Below the pieces are notes generated by a model, which worked only from the letters and a program-made list of their open reading frames with translations, was not told the origin of the DNA and ran no database searches. From Bacteriovoracaceae bacterium (GTDB lineage Bacteria > Bdellovibrionota > Bacteriovoracia > Bacteriovoracales > Bacteriovoracaceae): a DNA stretch of 64,000 nt. The stretch lies in NCBI GenBank assembly GCA_016786485.1, contig JAEUWD010000054.1:1-64000 (forward strand), in the 5' to 3' direction. The position numbers and the translations under genes are program-made. Positions 14,690 through 22,364 of the stretch are shown in pieces (within the stretch, counting starts at the first letter, position 1; each line of letters starts with the position of its first letter).

Positions 14690-15766
14690 ATGACTAAATA
14701 CTTTTTAATGCTGACCATGCTACTAAGTTCGACCCAAGTTTTTGCGTGGGGTGATTTAGGACATCAAGCTGTAGCGGAAGTGGCCCAACAAAATCTAACC
14801 AAGAAAACACAAAAAGCGATCGAAGGTATTTTAGGAATTGCACCTCTGGCATCAGCTGCCATTTTTCCAGACATTGTTCGTAGTGATGCTCGCTTTAACG
14901 GTTTTTCACCTTATCATTTCGTCGAAGTTTACCCTTTCTATCGTCGAGTTCCATCTGAACTACGCTTAAAAGGTAAAAACGCGACAACCGTTTTAGAGCT
15001 TTACCCACAAATTTTCTTAGATCATCGCAACGATCGTAATGCTCGTATGATTGCTCTTAGTTATTTCATCCATGTTGTTGGTGATATTCATCAGCCACTT
15101 CATGTTGGTAACGGTATCGATTTAGGCGCGAACTTATGTTTGGTGAAATGGAATTTAACTGGTGAAACTGAAGACACCCAACTTTCAAATCTGCACACAG
15201 TGTGGGACGAAAAAATTATTGATTACCTTAAAGAATCACAACGTAAAAAGAGTACCGCAAAAAGATTCTTTGGTTATGCTGAATTAGCAAAATATGCTTC
15301 AGATAATCAGAAAGCCGCAAATTATGAAGAAGCTAAAGCAGTACACTACACCAGCTGGATGAATGATACAGTTCAAATGAGAAATCATTTGGTTTACCCA
15401 GATGCAGCTGGGCAAAATAAAGCTGATGTTGATTTCTTACGCCCTTATTGTGGAGTAGCTAAACATATTGCAAAGTATGCTCAAGCTGGAGACCGCCAGG
15501 CACTGCTTGATAATTATGGTTACGAAGGCGATATCAATTTATTAGTGAATAAATTAAAAACAGAAATTAAAGATTCTGACATTCCCGTTTTAACCAATGC
15601 CTATGCTGACCAGTCTCTGGCGATTATTAAAAACCAAATTTATATTGCGGGCTTAAGACTTGCTCATTTATTAAATACTTATTTTGATCGACCAGAGAAA
15701 TACGTTCTTAAGCAAGCTCAGTTTCGTAAAGGTTTTAAATTAGAAGATCTTCAAATTGATCTTTAG
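14690..15766 (+). CDS. Secreted S1/P1 nuclease
   Basis: 358 aa. The signal peptide ends VFA-W, leaving Trp20 as the mature N-terminus; in this family that Trp is a zinc ligand. WGDLGHQ (His25), PDIVRSD, YHFVE, HVVGDIHQPLH and HTVWDEKI supply the usual His/Asp ligands of the trinuclear zinc site. These enzymes cut single-stranded DNA and RNA to 5' mononucleotides. A CGGAG ribosome site precedes the start. Release of nucleotides outside the cytoplasm fits both predation and the adjacent purine-degrading operon. The stop overlaps the convergent fusion gene (TTAG). Confidence 0.9.
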   Translation: MTKYFLMLTMLLSSTQVFAWGDLGHQAVAEVAQQNLTKKTQKAIEGILGIAPLASAAIFPDIVRSDARFNGFSPYHFVEVYPFYRRVPSELRLKGKNATTVLELYPQIFLDHRNDRNARMIALSYFIHVVGDIHQPLHVGNGIDLGANLCLVKWNLTGETEDTQLSNLHTVWDEKIIDYLKESQRKKSTAKRFFGYAELAKYASDNQKAANYEEAKAVHYTSWMNDTVQMRNHLVYPDAAGQNKADVDFLRPYCGVAKHIAKYAQAGDRQALLDNYGYEGDINLLVNKLKTEIKDSDIPVLTNAYADQSLAIIKNQIYIAGLRLAHLLNTYFDRPEKYVLKQAQFRKGFKLEDLQIDL

Positions 15767-18700
15767 TAAGTTGTAAAAGCTTTTAAACGGTGTAAACCAC
15801 CATCTGGAATGGTTTTCACTCGAATTTGCTCAATGATCTCATTATTAGTAAGTTCGAGGCGATATTGATTTCCGGCATAGGGTTTCATAAAGATTTTATT
15901 TTGTAGTGTTATCCACATACCATGACTCAAGCCTTCGATTTCAATTTCGTAAGGATTATTATTCACAAAATAAGTGAAATCGATTTCTAGTCGATGCAAT
16001 TTACTTGGTTTCGCTAATTGCACGATAACTTCCTCGAAGTGACCCGGCTTACGACTTCGCGCCGATTCCATACCATCAAACATATTAAGTGGTGCAAAGG
16101 GAGAAATCACCAGTACCGCAGGACTATAATGCTCGTTACTCGCTTTCACAATCTTGGCGCCAAAAGACGCGCTGGCCACATTATACGTTTCGCCTTTTTT
16201 AAGTTTAGAATAATTGCGTTTAATTTCTTCAGGGTTAGCATCATATTTTAAACTTAATGGTTTTTTCGTGTGTGGAATTTTTTCTTCATAAACACGTCCA
16301 ATACCATCAAAAGTTTTCTTTTCTTTTTCTGGAAGAATATCTGAAAACAATCCAAGACGAGAGAAACCACCATCTGGATACATCTTCACTTGGATCTTCG
16401 AAAAAGCTGGCGTTGCTTTTGAGAGCGTAATACGTTTTTCGCTATGACCTTCGATATCAGTCTTTGCTAAAAATTCAACCCACTCGCCGTCAAGAAAGCC
16501 TTCGAGACTAATGACGGGCGAATGATTTCCAAAATGATATTTAGTTGAAAGTAGAACATAATGAATCGGTGCTGGCTTTTTCACTTCAAACACCATGGCA
16601 TCAAAACCATTTTGATTATGTCGAACAGTTTCCCAACTATCCATCACCTTACCTTGTTTACCAAAAAGTTCAGGATCAAACTTAGGCAGGTGATCGCTTA
16701 AGAGATTTTCTGTGCGAGCAAATAATTCGTTGGTGACCGAAAGAACTTTTCCATCCACACACAAGTTGTAAGGAGCAAGAGGGTCCGCCGGACCTCGATC
16801 AATAATCGGCTCCGGGCGATTCGGCTTAAAAGTATCAAAGACGAGATTCTTAAAACCCATATTAACAATTTGTGCTTCAGGAATATTATCTGTTTTAAAA
16901 CTGGATAAAAACTTATTCGGCTCAATCCCGCTCATCTTCCATTCTTTTAAAACAAGTTGAGTCACTTCAGAAATAAACAGAACGCCACTTAATTCACCAT
17001 TACAAAGAACGACTAAACCTTTGCCTCGTTCTGGTCCAAAAAAGCAATGAACGAAAATACATCGAAAACCATCGTTAGCGCCTTGGTGAATAGCAATTTT
17101 ATTTTCACCAGCTTCAGCAATGAAAACACCAAGTCCCATTTTTGCTCCCATGAAAGCTTGGCTACCTTTATCAAAACCATAAAGCATCATTCTGGCGGTA
17201 TCGTGGGAAATGGGACCTGAACCATCGATATCGTGATAAGCATTTTCTAAATGTTGTGTGAAGACTTGCATAGCTTGAGCAGTGCCCATACTTCCAGCAG
17301 CGAAGGCCGGAAACATTTTGCGATGGCCTTCGATGAGTTCACCTTTATCCGTGAAACCGTCCGCGTATTCCACACCAGAAATATTTTGTTGCTCAAAACT
17401 AAAATCATTCATACCTAATTTATCAAGGAACGGTCTGGTTAATTTAAAAATAGATTGCCCTGCCATGGCCTCAATCAGATGTTCTAAAATAATAAAGCCA
17501 CCACCTGAGTATTGAAATTTAGTCCCTGGTTCATTGATAACTTTCAGTGGTTCATAACCATATTCGGCATTTCCGTTTAGAAATTCGGTAATCGCAGGCA
17601 TTTTTTTATTCGCCGGCACACCATTCACATAATGCATATTAATCGCCGTATGATTCATGAGGTGTGCGAGTTGAACCTTCTCGTTATTCAGGCGATATTT
17701 TGATTTAGTTTGGGCCAATAATTTATCAACGGATTCGGTCAGTGGAATTTTTCTTTCCAAAAAGAATTCAATGGCGAAGGCACTAGCGACTGCCTTACTG
17801 AGAGAGGCCATTTCAAACCAAGTTTTAGTTTGAGCTTCACCTAATGTGAATGATTGCAGGGCCGTACCATTTGAAAGCGCCACCTGGGCACTTTTGATTT
17901 TATGTTTCTTAGATAATTCTTCAATTTTAGTTGAAAGATTTGTGAATGGTTTTGCCAGAATACGTTTCTGAGTAATTTCCCAAAGCGCGTTTCGTGCGTT
18001 TTCCATTTCTTGTTTCGCCGAATTACCTAGGCGGGTTTTTAAAACACTTAAAATTTCTGAACCTGATTTACCTTGGGCCGAAATCAAAAATTTCATGCCA
18101 AATTTCTTTAAATACAATTCACCTTGCGCTCTTAATTCTGCTTTAATTTTGTCATCATCATTGAGAACTTTAGCTTGTTCCTGACTGGCCATTTTATCTA
18201 ATGTCTTTTTGTTTTCGCCTATATCACCGTGGAAACTGGCGGCGGCCAAAATGTCATTCATTGAAAAATTCAAAACGATATCTTTGGCCTGAAGCAAATT
18301 TGGAACAACTTGCGTTGAAAGTGGAGCAGCAAAAGTATGGCTGCCGCACATTTCAAAATAGTAATTAAAACGTTCGATATTTTCGTGAATATGAAATTTC
18401 TCTGCATCTAACTCAACCACTTTACTCCAAGGCTCAGCACTCTCGCGCACTTCTTCTAAAGTAAACGGTAATAATAATTGGGTAGCAAACTCGACTGGCC
18501 TTACGTCCGTCATAAGCTTAATCATGAGTTTCATCGCGACGGGATACCACATTTCAGTTCGTTCATCCCATTTTACTTGGACTTGTTTTTTCTCATTAGA
18601 TAGGTCCTTACGAATAAAATGGTATTCTTCATGAGCAATCTGTAAGAATTCATTCAGACCAAAGCGACCATGAGCAATTTCATGCCACACTTCCCAGCGC

Positions 18701-20397
18701 GAACGTTCCGCTGTCGCTAAATCATCCATCACGCGAACAGCAACGCCATTAATCTGAGTCGGTAGCGCCACGCAACCATTACCTGAAAGCCAGTCAGCAA
18801 GATATTGCAGCGTTTGAAAAACATTGTAACGAATTTCATCGGGATGGTTATTCGCGATAAAATCTGACTCTTTTAAATCTGCAACGATGAGTGATCTCGC
18901 ATACATCGGATCATCGACATTTAAACTCTCAATATCGGCGCCTTTAATAAATTTTAAAATCTCTGCATGATATTTTGAATCAAGTAACGACTTCACTAAT
19001 GTTTCTAATTTACTCTTGTCCCCTGCTTCTGAAATTTTCCAAGCTTCCACTAAAGCTAAACCTAGACGAACAAAGTCCGGATGAGCGACCCAGAAACCAC
19101 TGAGTCCACGTTTAAGCTGCGTAATAACATCGCGAATATATCCCAGCATTGTAACTTGAAAAGTCGGACTCATCAGATCATTTTGAGTAGGGAGAATACC
19201 ATACATCCCACCGACTTTAATTCCACCACGCGAACCAACCACATCAGTCAATAAATCGTGAGAAGCTTTAATATATTTAATGACGATATTCGGATCGGCC
19301 TTAACTGGAATACGATAATTTTTATCTTCTTTAAAAAGTCTCGCGGTTGAAGCCAAGTAATCATGCCAACCTAAACTTGCGCCAGCAAAATACGGATATA
19401 GTTCATCAATTATTTCATGCACACGAAAAACCGCCCGTGGGTTCTCAAGCACAATCATCAAACGAATGCTGCCGGCTTTATATTTTGCATGACGCTTTTG
19501 AATTAACTTCTCGGCCGCTTTTAGCATGGTTGCGATGTAACGAGCTTCTTCTTCATTTTCTAATTTAGGAACATAGAAAGTGAGAGCTTCTTCATTATCC
19601 CAGTGATGGAAGAAATGAAGAGCGAAATCATATAAGTGTAACGGTAATGGTTGTTCATTATAAAAAAGAAAAAAAGATGGAAGTGCTAGCCCGGGGAATC
19701 TTTTTATCGGATGTGCTAGCTTATCTTTCTCAAGTGCATAGTCTTCAAGCTTGATCGTTTTATCAAAACACTTACTTAAATTCTCACCAGCAGAAATAAG
19801 ATCATCACGTAGTGGCGTTTTTGAATCTTCATCATCCGCTCCCCACTTAGGAACGGCCACACATGTTTTTAGCAACTCAGAAACAATCTCGGGCTCTTGT
19901 TTCAACTTGCGATGATATGAATTCATGGCGTTGATACAAAGTTTAGTACTATCTGGCGGCCCAAAAAGAGTAACGTGGTTGCCTTTTAAAAATTCTGGTA
20001 ACGGAGCAATTTTGCCACTGCTGCGAGCTTTAGCGTAGTCTGGCGTTTTCGGTCCCCATACCACTCGCCCATCGCCATCTTCAAAACCAATTGGTGTGAG
20101 ATAATCTTGCTCTAAAAAATCTCTTTTATATTCTTCATTGAACTTCACCAGAACACGAATTCGCTCATCGAGGAACTTTCTATCTTGTGTCCTGCGGTTA
20201 AGAACTGTTTTTAAATCTGATTTCACTTCATCATAAAGTTCACAAAGAAAACTTAAGGCTTCAGGCGTCTCTAAACCACCATTAGTACCTATCTGCTTAA
20301 GACCTTTAACACCATTTACGTCATTGGCTTGTTTCAAAAGATGGCGAAGCATTTTTGATGATAAGAAATCATCGTAATATGGGATTTCGTATTTCAT
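15763..20397 (-). CDS. Four-domain fusion: malate synthase - OHCU decarboxylase - beta-lactamase-fold hydrolase - allantoicase
   Basis: 1544 aa. Residues 1-650 match malate synthase A: Arg233 (KRFPGLALP), Glu318 (MIVLENPRA), Asp346 (GWHDYLAS), WLSGNGCV and Asp559 (MDDLATAERS). Residues about 665-835 match OHCU decarboxylase, with His723 in FHGDIGE (family HPxIGE) and FGMKFLISAQGKSG. Residues about 840-1170 form a serine beta-lactamase/esterase fold: SLSK (Ser865, Lys868), YSG (Tyr963) and HQG (His1104). Residues about 1175-1544 are two allantoicase repeats (NELFARTENLL and MYPDGGFSRLGLF in the first; FGAKIVKASNEHY and IPDGGLHRLKAF in the second). Together they cover OHCU to allantoin, allantoate to ureidoglycolate, and glyoxylate to malate. 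The start lies 3 nt after the HIU hydrolase stop. Confidence 0.88.
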   Translation of the reverse strand: MKYEIPYYDDFLSSKMLRHLLKQANDVNGVKGLKQIGTNGGLETPEALSFLCELYDEVKSDLKTVLNRRTQDRKFLDERIRVLVKFNEEYKRDFLEQDYLTPIGFEDGDGRVVWGPKTPDYAKARSSGKIAPLPEFLKGNHVTLFGPPDSTKLCINAMNSYHRKLKQEPEIVSELLKTCVAVPKWGADDEDSKTPLRDDLISAGENLSKCFDKTIKLEDYALEKDKLAHPIKRFPGLALPSFFLFYNEQPLPLHLYDFALHFFHHWDNEEALTFYVPKLENEEEARYIATMLKAAEKLIQKRHAKYKAGSIRLMIVLENPRAVFRVHEIIDELYPYFAGASLGWHDYLASTARLFKEDKNYRIPVKADPNIVIKYIKASHDLLTDVVGSRGGIKVGGMYGILPTQNDLMSPTFQVTMLGYIRDVITQLKRGLSGFWVAHPDFVRLGLALVEAWKISEAGDKSKLETLVKSLLDSKYHAEILKFIKGADIESLNVDDPMYARSLIVADLKESDFIANNHPDEIRYNVFQTLQYLADWLSGNGCVALPTQINGVAVRVMDDLATAERSRWEVWHEIAHGRFGLNEFLQIAHEEYHFIRKDLSNEKKQVQVKWDERTEMWYPVAMKLMIKLMTDVRPVEFATQLLLPFTLEEVRESAEPWSKVVELDAEKFHIHENIERFNYYFEMCGSHTFAAPLSTQVVPNLLQAKDIVLNFSMNDILAAASFHGDIGENKKTLDKMASQEQAKVLNDDDKIKAELRAQGELYLKKFGMKFLISAQGKSGSEILSVLKTRLGNSAKQEMENARNALWEITQKRILAKPFTNLSTKIEELSKKHKIKSAQVALSNGTALQSFTLGEAQTKTWFEMASLSKAVASAFAIEFFLERKIPLTESVDKLLAQTKSKYRLNNEKVQLAHLMNHTAINMHYVNGVPANKKMPAITEFLNGNAEYGYEPLKVINEPGTKFQYSGGGFIILEHLIEAMAGQSIFKLTRPFLDKLGMNDFSFEQQNISGVEYADGFTDKGELIEGHRKMFPAFAAGSMGTAQAMQVFTQHLENAYHDIDGSGPISHDTARMMLYGFDKGSQAFMGAKMGLGVFIAEAGENKIAIHQGANDGFRCIFVHCFFGPERGKGLVVLCNGELSGVLFISEVTQLVLKEWKMSGIEPNKFLSSFKTDNIPEAQIVNMGFKNLVFDTFKPNRPEPIIDRGPADPLAPYNLCVDGKVLSVTNELFARTENLLSDHLPKFDPELFGKQGKVMDSWETVRHNQNGFDAMVFEVKKPAPIHYVLLSTKYHFGNHSPVISLEGFLDGEWVEFLAKTDIEGHSEKRITLSKATPAFSKIQVKMYPDGGFSRLGLFSDILPEKEKKTFDGIGRVYEEKIPHTKKPLSLKYDANPEEIKRNYSKLKKGETYNVASASFGAKIVKASNEHYSPAVLVISPFAPLNMFDGMESARSRKPGHFEEVIVQLAKPSKLHRLEIDFTYFVNNNPYEIEIEGLSHGMWITLQNKIFMKPYAGNQYRLELTNNEIIEQIRVKTIPDGGLHRLKAFTTY

Positions 20398-20400
20398 GGA

Positions 20401-20715
20401 CTAACTGCCTCTGTAAGTTGAATAACCATAAGGGCTTAGTAAAAGTGGCACATGATATTTGCGTTTCGTATTTTTAATTTGAAAAACGACTGGAGTATTT
20501 AAGAAAAAATTTTCATCAAAATAATTTTCGATTTTGAAAGTTAGTCGATAAACACCTGGATCTTTAGCGGCATCAAAAACAATCCGGCCATCGCTATTGG
20601 TAGAAAGTAATGAGATCTGAACCCACTTATCTTTTTTCTGTTCCATCTCTAAAAGGACTTCGATACCTTTTGCAGGTTGACCTTGAGAAATATCTAGGAT
20701 GTGCGTACTGATCAT
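20401..20715 (-). CDS. 5-hydroxyisourate hydrolase (transthyretin-like)
   Basis: 104 aa, the usual length. It begins STHILDISQGQPAKG, carries DPGVYRL, and ends with the diagnostic YHVPLLLSPYGYSTYRGS. The enzyme opens 5-hydroxyisourate to OHCU, the step directly after urate oxidation. It sits between the PuuD gene (11 nt away) and the fusion gene (3 nt away), so all three are one transcription unit. No signal peptide; cytoplasmic. Confidence 0.95.
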   Translation of the reverse strand: MISTHILDISQGQPAKGIEVLLEMEQKKDKWVQISLLSTNSDGRIVFDAAKDPGVYRLTFKIENYFDENFFLNTPVVFQIKNTKRKYHVPLLLSPYGYSTYRGS

Positions 20716-20726
20716 AACTAAACCTC

Positions 20727-22364
20727 TTATTTAAAATCGATATCGATTTTATTCGTACTCGTTTCACTAATGGTAATTTCTTTTTCTTGTTTGCCAAAAA
20801 CTTCGTGCCATATTTCTAAAGTATAAGTTCCGGCAGTAAGACCTGAAAATTTAAATTCGCCATTACGATTCGAAACCGCAAAGAATGGATGTTCCATGAT
20901 AGCAATGTATGAGCCCATCCAAGGATGAACTGAACACTTGGCCTGTAGAAATAATTCTGGCTTAGTGAAAATTTTTGTTTCACGTTGATCTTTACGTGGC
21001 ATCGCCATATTAAATTTCTGATTCACTTTGGTTAACGAACGGACATTGTGAAAAACTGGATCAGAATTGACGAAAGTGACTTTCTGACCAACTCGCGCGC
21101 CAACCACTCTCGGCGTATAAATACAGCCTTTTTGATCAAGGACAACTTCTTGAGCTGGAACTGCCGTCGTAGGCAGATTTTCATGGCCCTTAATCACGCG
21201 CACTAAAACGTTTTCTAATTTTCCATTATGAATCAAGATTTCATTTGAATAAACATCGCCGCCACCCGTTTTGCAACCAGCAGGCAAATTTAATTTTTTA
21301 TTCTGAGGCGCGACACCGCTAAAAGTAACAACACCGCTCACCTCATAAGTTTTTGCGTTAGGATTAGCAACCACTTCTGTTTGGGCGACAACTTCTGGTA
21401 CGACTTTTGTCGTTTCGACAATCTCTATTGTCTCTGTATCAGGGGGAACAACTTCATCTTCCGTTTTAGAAAAAACCACCACACCAGTAATAAGGGCCAC
21501 ACCAACTAAACCTGCAAGCATTGAACGCTTTGGGTGACTCAAACGCACAACGAAGTATTCACGAATAGCAGCACCACCAGCGCTAATCGCCAGCAGGATG
21601 AGCCAATTGAGATCATGACCATAAGTTTGTGGAAAGTGATTACTTAGCATGATGAAAATAACAGGCAGAGTGAAATAGGTATTATGTGTGGAACGATTCT
21701 TAGCGTTTTTGCCCCAGTCTTGATTTACTGGTTCACCCTTCTTCGAAGCTTCCACCATTTTTATCTGACGTGGAATAATTCGCATGAACACGTTACAAGT
21801 CATCCAAGTACCTAACATCCCACCGATATGAATATAAGCCGCACGTCCACTTAAGGTATGACAAAGAAAATAAGAAGCACCAGCAAACCAAGCAAGCGTG
21901 AGAATATGTCCGATAATCGGTTTGTTTTTCGTGAGCTGTCGCTCCCAAACAAAATCATAAAAAAACCATGAACCAAAAATTGAAAAGAGAGAAACAAGAA
22001 TCGCTTGAGAAAAAGTGATATTAGAAACCATTGAATCAAGCAGCATCGTACCTTCACCGGTGTAATACACCAGCACAATCAGAAACATCCCGCTCATCCA
22101 GGTCCAATAAGATTCCCACTTAAACCAGTGCAATCTTTCTGGAACTTTTGTCGGACCCATTAGCAACTTTTCAACGTGATAAAATCCACCACCGTGGACC
22201 ATCCACACATCGCCGACATGACCAGGGCTTTTTGAATCCTTATTAAACTCAAAACTACGATCGAGCCACATGAAGAAAATTGAGGTTCCAATCCAGGTTA
22301 CCGCCACCGTAATATGTAACCATCGGGCAAGTAAAACTATCCAATCAAAAATATGCTGTTCCAT
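20727..22364 (-). CDS. puuD: PuuD-type membrane urate oxidase with a cupredoxin-like C-terminal domain
   Basis: 545 aa. The first about 300 residues hold eight or so membrane segments with the PuuD pattern (WLHITVAVTWIGTSIFF, HVEKLLMGP, YIHIGGMLGTWMTCNVF, NHFP). PuuD oxidises urate and normally passes electrons to its own C-terminal cytochrome c. Here no CxxCH is present. After a Pro/Val/Glu-rich linker (about 305-345) comes a beta domain with His439 (VFHNV) and Cys477-x2-His480-x2-Met483, a type-1 copper-like set spaced as in amicyanin. A final Ig-like segment (FKFSGLTAGTYTLEIWHE) follows. It leads the urate operon. Copper as electron acceptor is inference. Confidence 0.85.
   Translation of the reverse strand: MEQHIFDWIVLLARWLHITVAVTWIGTSIFFMWLDRSFEFNKDSKSPGHVGDVWMVHGGGFYHVEKLLMGPTKVPERLHWFKWESYWTWMSGMFLIVLVYYTGEGTMLLDSMVSNITFSQAILVSLFSIFGSWFFYDFVWERQLTKNKPIIGHILTLAWFAGASYFLCHTLSGRAAYIHIGGMLGTWMTCNVFMRIIPRQIKMVEASKKGEPVNQDWGKNAKNRSTHNTYFTLPVIFIMLSNHFPQTYGHDLNWLILLAISAGGAAIREYFVVRLSHPKRSMLAGLVGVALITGVVVFSKTEDEVVPPDTETIEIVETTKVVPEVVAQTEVVANPNAKTYEVSGVVTFSGVAPQNKKLNLPAGCKTGGGDVYSNEILIHNGKLENVLVRVIKGHENLPTTAVPAQEVVLDQKGCIYTPRVVGARVGQKVTFVNSDPVFHNVRSLTKVNQKFNMAMPRKDQRETKIFTKPELFLQAKCSVHPWMGSYIAIMEHPFFAVSNRNGEFKFSGLTAGTYTLEIWHEVFGKQEKEITISETSTNKIDIDFK

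Follow-up and report, generated by a model that had tools for sequence, protein, structure and literature searches.

A malate synthase-allantoicase fusion protein of predator-related bacteria with a beta-lactamase-fold domain as a candidate third type of allantoinase

The route from 2-oxo-4-hydroxy-4-carboxy-5-ureidoimidazoline (OHCU) to malate requires OHCU decarboxylase, allantoinase, allantoicase, breakdown of ureidoglycolate and malate synthase. Fusions of consecutive ureide enzymes are known, including plant OHCU decarboxylase-5-hydroxyisourate hydrolase (HIUase) and Cryptococcus Dal2-Dal3-Dal3 (PMC3646786), and an allantoicase-OHCU decarboxylase type, PRK13797, is known through a profile match. 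In this study, we analyzed a stretch of 64,000 nucleotides from a Bacteriovoracaceae bacterium (assembly GCA_016786485.1, contig JAEUWD010000054.1; hereafter the window), in which one gene joins malate synthase (MS), OHCU decarboxylase, a serine beta-lactamase/penicillin-binding protein (PBP)-fold domain (BL) and two allantoicase repeats (ALC). Its sequence and genomic context suggest that BL is probably a serine-type allantoinase, a third kind unrelated to AllB or PuuE.

The gene is a single ATG-started frame without interruption on the minus strand, and the plus strand is full of stops there. The protein and its domains, with lengths and positions in amino acids (aa), are as follows.

15763..20397, minus strand: four-domain fusion protein MS-OHCU decarboxylase-BL-allantoicase, 1544 aa (single open reading frame, Pfam domains, full-length homologues in many genomes)
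18388..20397, minus strand: MS region, aa 1-670 (PF01274, PF20659; 3cuz alignment; invariant residues)
17959..18297, minus strand: OHCU decarboxylase domain, aa 701-813 (PF09349; 5uou alignment; invariant residues)
16990..17931, minus strand: serine beta-lactamase/PBP-fold (S12-like) domain BL, aa 823-1136 (PF00144; AlphaFold model; PDB fold matches; motif conservation)
16342..16752, minus strand: allantoicase repeat 1, aa 1216-1352 (PF03561, 90.9 bits)
15769..16161, minus strand: allantoicase repeat 2 (PF03561, 70.7 bits)

A preliminary description of this DNA had proposed four modules in one 1544-aa frame without stating the strand, and Pfam matches above the gathering cut-offs together with PDB sequence searches confirmed all four. 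In the MS region, MS_TIM-barrel (aa 236-447, 19057-19692) scored 80.5 bits and MS_C covered aa 520-639 (18481-18840), and residues E318, D346 and D559 aligned with E. coli malate synthase A (3cuz). OHCU_decarbox scored 73.1 bits against a cut-off of 24, and BL matched the Pfam family Beta-lactamase with 83.1 bits. The two tandem allantoicase repeats run from aa 1216 to the C-terminus with a Pfam total of 150.6 bits; the TIGR02961 allantoicase equivalog gave 172 bits, under its cut-off of 277.9. The solved relatives were allantoicase 1sg3/1o59, malate synthase A 3cuz, OHCU decarboxylase 5uou/3o7h and, for BL, the Flp/D-peptidase family.

Conservation was examined in an alignment of 57 sequences. 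The MS, OHCU decarboxylase and checked allantoicase residues were invariant wherever covered, among them the catalytic Arg R233, the metal-binding E318/D346 and the C-terminal catalytic D559 of MS, and the catalytic H723, E740 and R812 of OHCU decarboxylase, whose HPxIG motif reads HGDIG in the window protein. The BL motifs are the nucleophile motif S865-x-x-K868, Y963-S-G and H1104-x-G1106. S865, K868 and H1104 were invariant wherever covered, and Y963 and G1106 were invariant outside one genus, g45. The residues named in the preliminary description (E318, D346, D559, H723, S865 and K868) were right and invariant. The fusion protein very likely has MS, OHCU decarboxylase and allantoicase activities.

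The distribution of the fusion was investigated in a phylum sample of 369 Bdellovibrionota genomes. The fusion or its BL-ALC part was present in 71 of them, spread over several families, and the window protein was matched in 50 of the 129 genomes of its order, mostly as full-length frames with 44-67% identity and in 14 genera. Overall, full-length frames are ~1510-1610 aa long with 44-68% identity and occur in dozens of independent assemblies, including the single-contig 4.15-Mb genome G104. Titled relatives in a scan of genome contigs, which covered close relatives only, were Bacteriovoracaceae, Bacteriovorax, Halobacteriovorax and Oligoflexia metagenome-assembled genomes; the fusion is carried by a family whose members are mostly uncultured and related to predators. 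A few assemblies, in which the frame breaks within the OHCU domain (G007, L053; G310, L122) through either sequencing error or real fission, would agree with a merger of separate genes by an assembly or frameshift artefact. However, full-length frames that keep the order of the domains and the conserved residues recur in dozens of independent assemblies and in a genome on a single contig, which makes such an artefact practically inconceivable. The survey of domain order suggested in the preliminary description thus returned the matching order in dozens of assemblies, and the merger of separate genes by sequencing error, which it had named as a possible refutation, is excluded by the recurring full-length frames. 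The four-domain fusion is certainly real and conserved. It is apparently undescribed so far: the preliminary description knew of none, and no paper on a malate synthase-allantoicase fusion was found in the open-access literature.

Of the steps from OHCU to malate, the fusion leaves out allantoinase and the breakdown of ureidoglycolate, unless BL performs one of the two. Two genes upstream on the same strand, separated by gaps of 3 and 11 bases, form a tight operon with it, in agreement with the operon first proposed.

20401..20715, minus strand: HIUase, 104 aa (TIGR02962, above its cut-off)
20727..22364, minus strand: PuuD-type membrane urate oxidase, 545 aa (PF06181, Urate_ox_N membrane domain, 346 bits)

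The urate-to-malate pathway proposed for this operon fits three of the modules, but the need for an allantoinase had been overlooked and the beta-lactamase fold left unexplained. The proposed yield of malate plus urea stands as regards urate to malate; ureidoglycolate breakdown is also needed, and the known enzyme for it was not found.

We therefore compared the two known allantoinases with the fusion across genomes. AllB was above the equivalog cut-off (TIGR03178) in 23 of the 369 phylum genomes. PuuE (TIGR03212) was present in 1 of 126 order genomes sampled (G111, without the fusion) and in 0 of 27 further or repeated genomes. Neither AllB nor PuuE was found in genomes with an intact fusion. 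The conventional operon, where whole, comprises PuuD, AllB, allantoicase, OHCU decarboxylase, HIUase and DUF6986, often in that order, and the fusion operon comprises PuuD, HIUase and the MS-OHCU-BL-ALC gene. In G111, PuuE, encoded at a separate place, stands in for AllB in the conventional set. The xanthine dehydrogenase genes XdhB/XdhC adjoin both operon forms in several genomes. When the two forms are subtracted, BL corresponds to AllB and MS to DUF6986. BL remains joined to ALC even where MS is a separate gene. As a separate observation, PuuD and AllB are apparently fused in one 875-aa frame in G346 (L127:1338-3965).

Among 96 genomes with allantoicase, 71 carry BL-ALC and 25 carry unfused allantoicase only. 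AllB or PuuE was present in 24 of the latter 25 and in 2 of the 71 BL-ALC genomes (Fisher p ~3e-19, uncorrected for kinship). Whole AllB was found in 22 of the 25, AllB truncated by a contig end in G285, and PuuE in G111. Neither was found in the remaining genome, G357 (72% complete, contig end), which may still hold one. Both arrangements occur in sister species within each of three genera, namely g41 (G110 fusion, G111 conventional), g146 (G324/G325) and g158 (G340/G339).

The only BL-ALC genomes with AllB, G120 and G121, both belong to genus g45, in which MS and BL-ALC are separate genes. Where covered, BL of g45 shows the changes H922N, Y963F, Q1105H and G1106A, and the allantoicase residues are intact. 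Q1105H and G1106A occur in G120, G121 and G122, and Y963F in the latter two, the copy of G120 being truncated. G122, a relative with the same BL loss, is 68% complete, and no AllB was found in it. An unfused allantoicase is additionally present in G121 and G122. The changes in AllB-bearing g45 suggest that BL degenerates in the presence of another allantoinase. H922 was not relied on as a BL-specific marker, as His is also present at this place in a generic serine hydrolase. The allantoicase tree leaves the position of g45 unresolved. In the malate synthase tree, the separate g45 MS genes group with fused G026/G070 (99% Shimodaira-Hasegawa-like approximate likelihood ratio test, long branches), and the split in g45 is therefore somewhat more likely to stem from the fission of a fusion that was ancestral. 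Two further gene arrangements were seen in this genus. One is a 617-aa AllB-OHCU decarboxylase fusion followed by HIUase (L083:8877-10730; L085:2-1273), cut by the contig end in G121. The other is a single-repeat allantoicase-like protein of 179 and 166 aa that adjoins the separate MS gene, with a class V aminotransferase alongside (L049:8387-8926; L050:3071-3571).

The fold of BL was then considered. The AlphaFold model of BL had a mean predicted local distance difference test score of 96.5, and Foldseek matched it to PBP-type esterases, R61 DD-peptidase, LACTB, SurE and D-amino acid amidase with template modelling scores of ~0.7 and 15-20% identity. Amidases, esterases and peptidases are thus among its fold neighbours, and the PBP/beta-lactamase fold commonly catalyses the attack of a serine on amide carbonyls. 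BL is not a class C beta-lactamase (NF033085, 22.9 bits against a cut-off of 415). Because this score is far under the cut-off and BL lies between cytosolic metabolic domains, an antibiotic-resistance or cell-wall enzyme was rejected as the principal explanation. A dead structural module is unlikely, since the catalytic motifs are invariant. A plasmid search for relatives of BL gave generic serine hydrolases only (~22-29% identity), with no urate genes in the three neighbourhoods inspected, one of which was unannotated.

BL is assigned to the allantoinase step by its slot in the pathway and by the absence of normal allantoinases wherever BL is intact. If BL is an allantoinase, one chain covers OHCU to malate except ureidoglycolate breakdown. 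In the proposed pathway, PuuD and HIUase would convert urate to OHCU, and the OHCU decarboxylase domain would convert OHCU to (S)-allantoin. In BL, Ser865, assisted by Lys868, Tyr963 and the HQG loop, would open the hydantoin ring via an acyl-enzyme to give allantoate. The allantoicase domain would then release urea and ureidoglycolate, and the latter would yield glyoxylate and urea either spontaneously or by a further enzyme. Finally, the MS domain would form malate from glyoxylate and acetyl-CoA and so remove this toxic aldehyde. It is a plausible hypothesis that OHCU and glyoxylate are channelled within the chain. We think it fairly likely, taking the whole picture together, that a third non-homologous class of allantoinase, with a serine nucleophile and a PBP fold, works within one OHCU-to-malate polypeptide that makes and consumes nearly every unstable or toxic intermediate.

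Several points weigh against this assignment. To our knowledge, no beta-lactamase-fold allantoinase has been characterised, and no paper on a serine or beta-lactamase-fold allantoinase was found in the open-access literature. The exclusion counts are phylogenetically correlated, and BL decay is seen in one lineage. The PF04115 ureidoglycolate lyase was found in none of the fusion-bearing order genomes except the split g45 member G122, and BL could serve the ureidoglycolate step instead, although conventional operons are mostly without the lyase too. The window's genome also encodes a dihydropyrimidinase and a dihydroorotase, and the dihydropyrimidinase might accept allantoin.

Two alternatives build on these points. 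If BL were a ureidoglycolase that converts ureidoglycolate to glyoxylate and urea, with allantoin opened by another enzyme, the missing lyase would be explained; in G122, which has a degenerate BL, a ureidoglycolate lyase gene adjoins BL-ALC, and BL is covalently joined to allantoicase, whose product is ureidoglycolate. Yet most conventional AllB operons here also lack the lyase (G344 is an exception), so that this step need not be encoded. BL swaps with AllB/PuuE and not with the lyase, and the allantoinase step would stay empty in dozens of genomes, which makes a ureidoglycolase quite improbable. It is also doubtful that BL is a serine hydrolase with another substrate, or a structural or allosteric module, while a dihydropyrimidinase-like amidohydrolase performs the allantoinase step. 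The functional diversity of PF00144 proteins and the dihydropyrimidinase of the window's genome agree with this, and E. coli AllB is known to be under the control of a partner enzyme (PMC10163214). However, many fusion genomes, for example G104, gave a dihydroorotase-level match only, and dihydropyrimidinase was rejected as a general allantoinase because it was not found in many of them. Moreover, every intact fusion keeps the BL motifs unchanged, and the AllB-bearing lineage is the only one to have lost them, which suggests that BL has a catalytic role linked to the AllB step. These results favour BL as the allantoinase of the fusion.

The role of the MS domain was examined in the same genomes. 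It is the only malate synthase found in the window's genome, and no isocitrate lyase was found there; therefore, the MS domain does not serve a glyoxylate shunt in this genome. Where isocitrate lyase is encoded, the genome mostly has another malate synthase of the ordinary type, usually adjoining the isocitrate lyase, and the MS domain shares only 24-26% identity with the ordinary malate synthases of this phylum. DUF6986 (PF22484), a weak malate synthase match, was in no fusion genome of the order. Since it takes the place of the MS domain in conventional operons, it may be a glyoxylate-consuming, malate-synthase-like enzyme. In G320 (L113:7909-12126), the MS part is ~100 aa shorter and the otherwise invariant C542 is replaced by N (C542N), with the checked catalytic residues kept. 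Examples of DUF6986 are as follows.

L075:12216-13559: DUF6986, last gene of a conventional urate operon
L130:10657-12039: DUF6986, last gene of a conventional urate operon
L151:4914-6242: DUF6986, last gene of a conventional urate operon

PuuD has been described as a cytochrome c fusion (PMC4562309). In PuuD of the window, profile searches matched no cytochrome c family at the C-terminus, where this family is expected to carry one. A blue-copper (cupredoxin-like) segment with the motif C-x-x-H-P-W-M lies there at ~20904-21122 (PDB sequence match: blue type 1 copper protein, amicyanins), and many PuuD relatives within the phylum also have such a tail. Urate oxidation here may pass electrons to copper. 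On the other side of the fusion gene, an S1/P1 nuclease gene (14690-15766) lies on the opposite strand, and the two gene ends overlap by 4 bases. A promoter and terminator scan of the operon gave no informative signal above chance.

If BL is an allantoinase, the classical allantoinase reaction would gain a new enzyme class, and the gap that dozens of genomes show in this pathway would be accounted for. The fusion would also be a natural four-module catabolic chain suited to the study of OHCU, ureidoglycolate and glyoxylate channelling. It suggests that bacteria of predatory groups on a nucleic-acid-rich diet could burn prey purines to malate and urea.

The conventional bacterial urate/allantoin operon performs the same set of reactions and, in this phylum, has the same operon content except for AllB and DUF6986; the fusion differs from it in joining three enzymes and BL in one chain, with BL for AllB and the MS domain for DUF6986. 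The plant, Cryptococcus and PRK13797 fusions likewise join urate-pathway enzymes, with channelling proposed, but they contain neither a malate synthase nor a beta-lactamase-fold domain, and none reaches from OHCU to malate. The MS domain shares the TIM barrel, the C-terminal helical domain and the metal-site and catalytic Asp residues with malate synthase A (3cuz) and has a longer N-terminal region. BL shares its fold, SxxK, Tyr and HxG with S12/PF00144 serine hydrolases such as Flp, D-amino acid amidase, IS11 esterase and SurE, whereas it is only 15-20% identical to solved members, is fused to ureide enzymes and would act on a small cyclic ureide. AllB, an amidohydrolase, and PuuE, of the polysaccharide-deacetylase fold, have the same proposed reaction, allantoin to allantoate, and the same genomic slot as BL, but BL is unrelated to them in fold and chemistry, having a serine nucleophile in a PBP/beta-lactamase fold.

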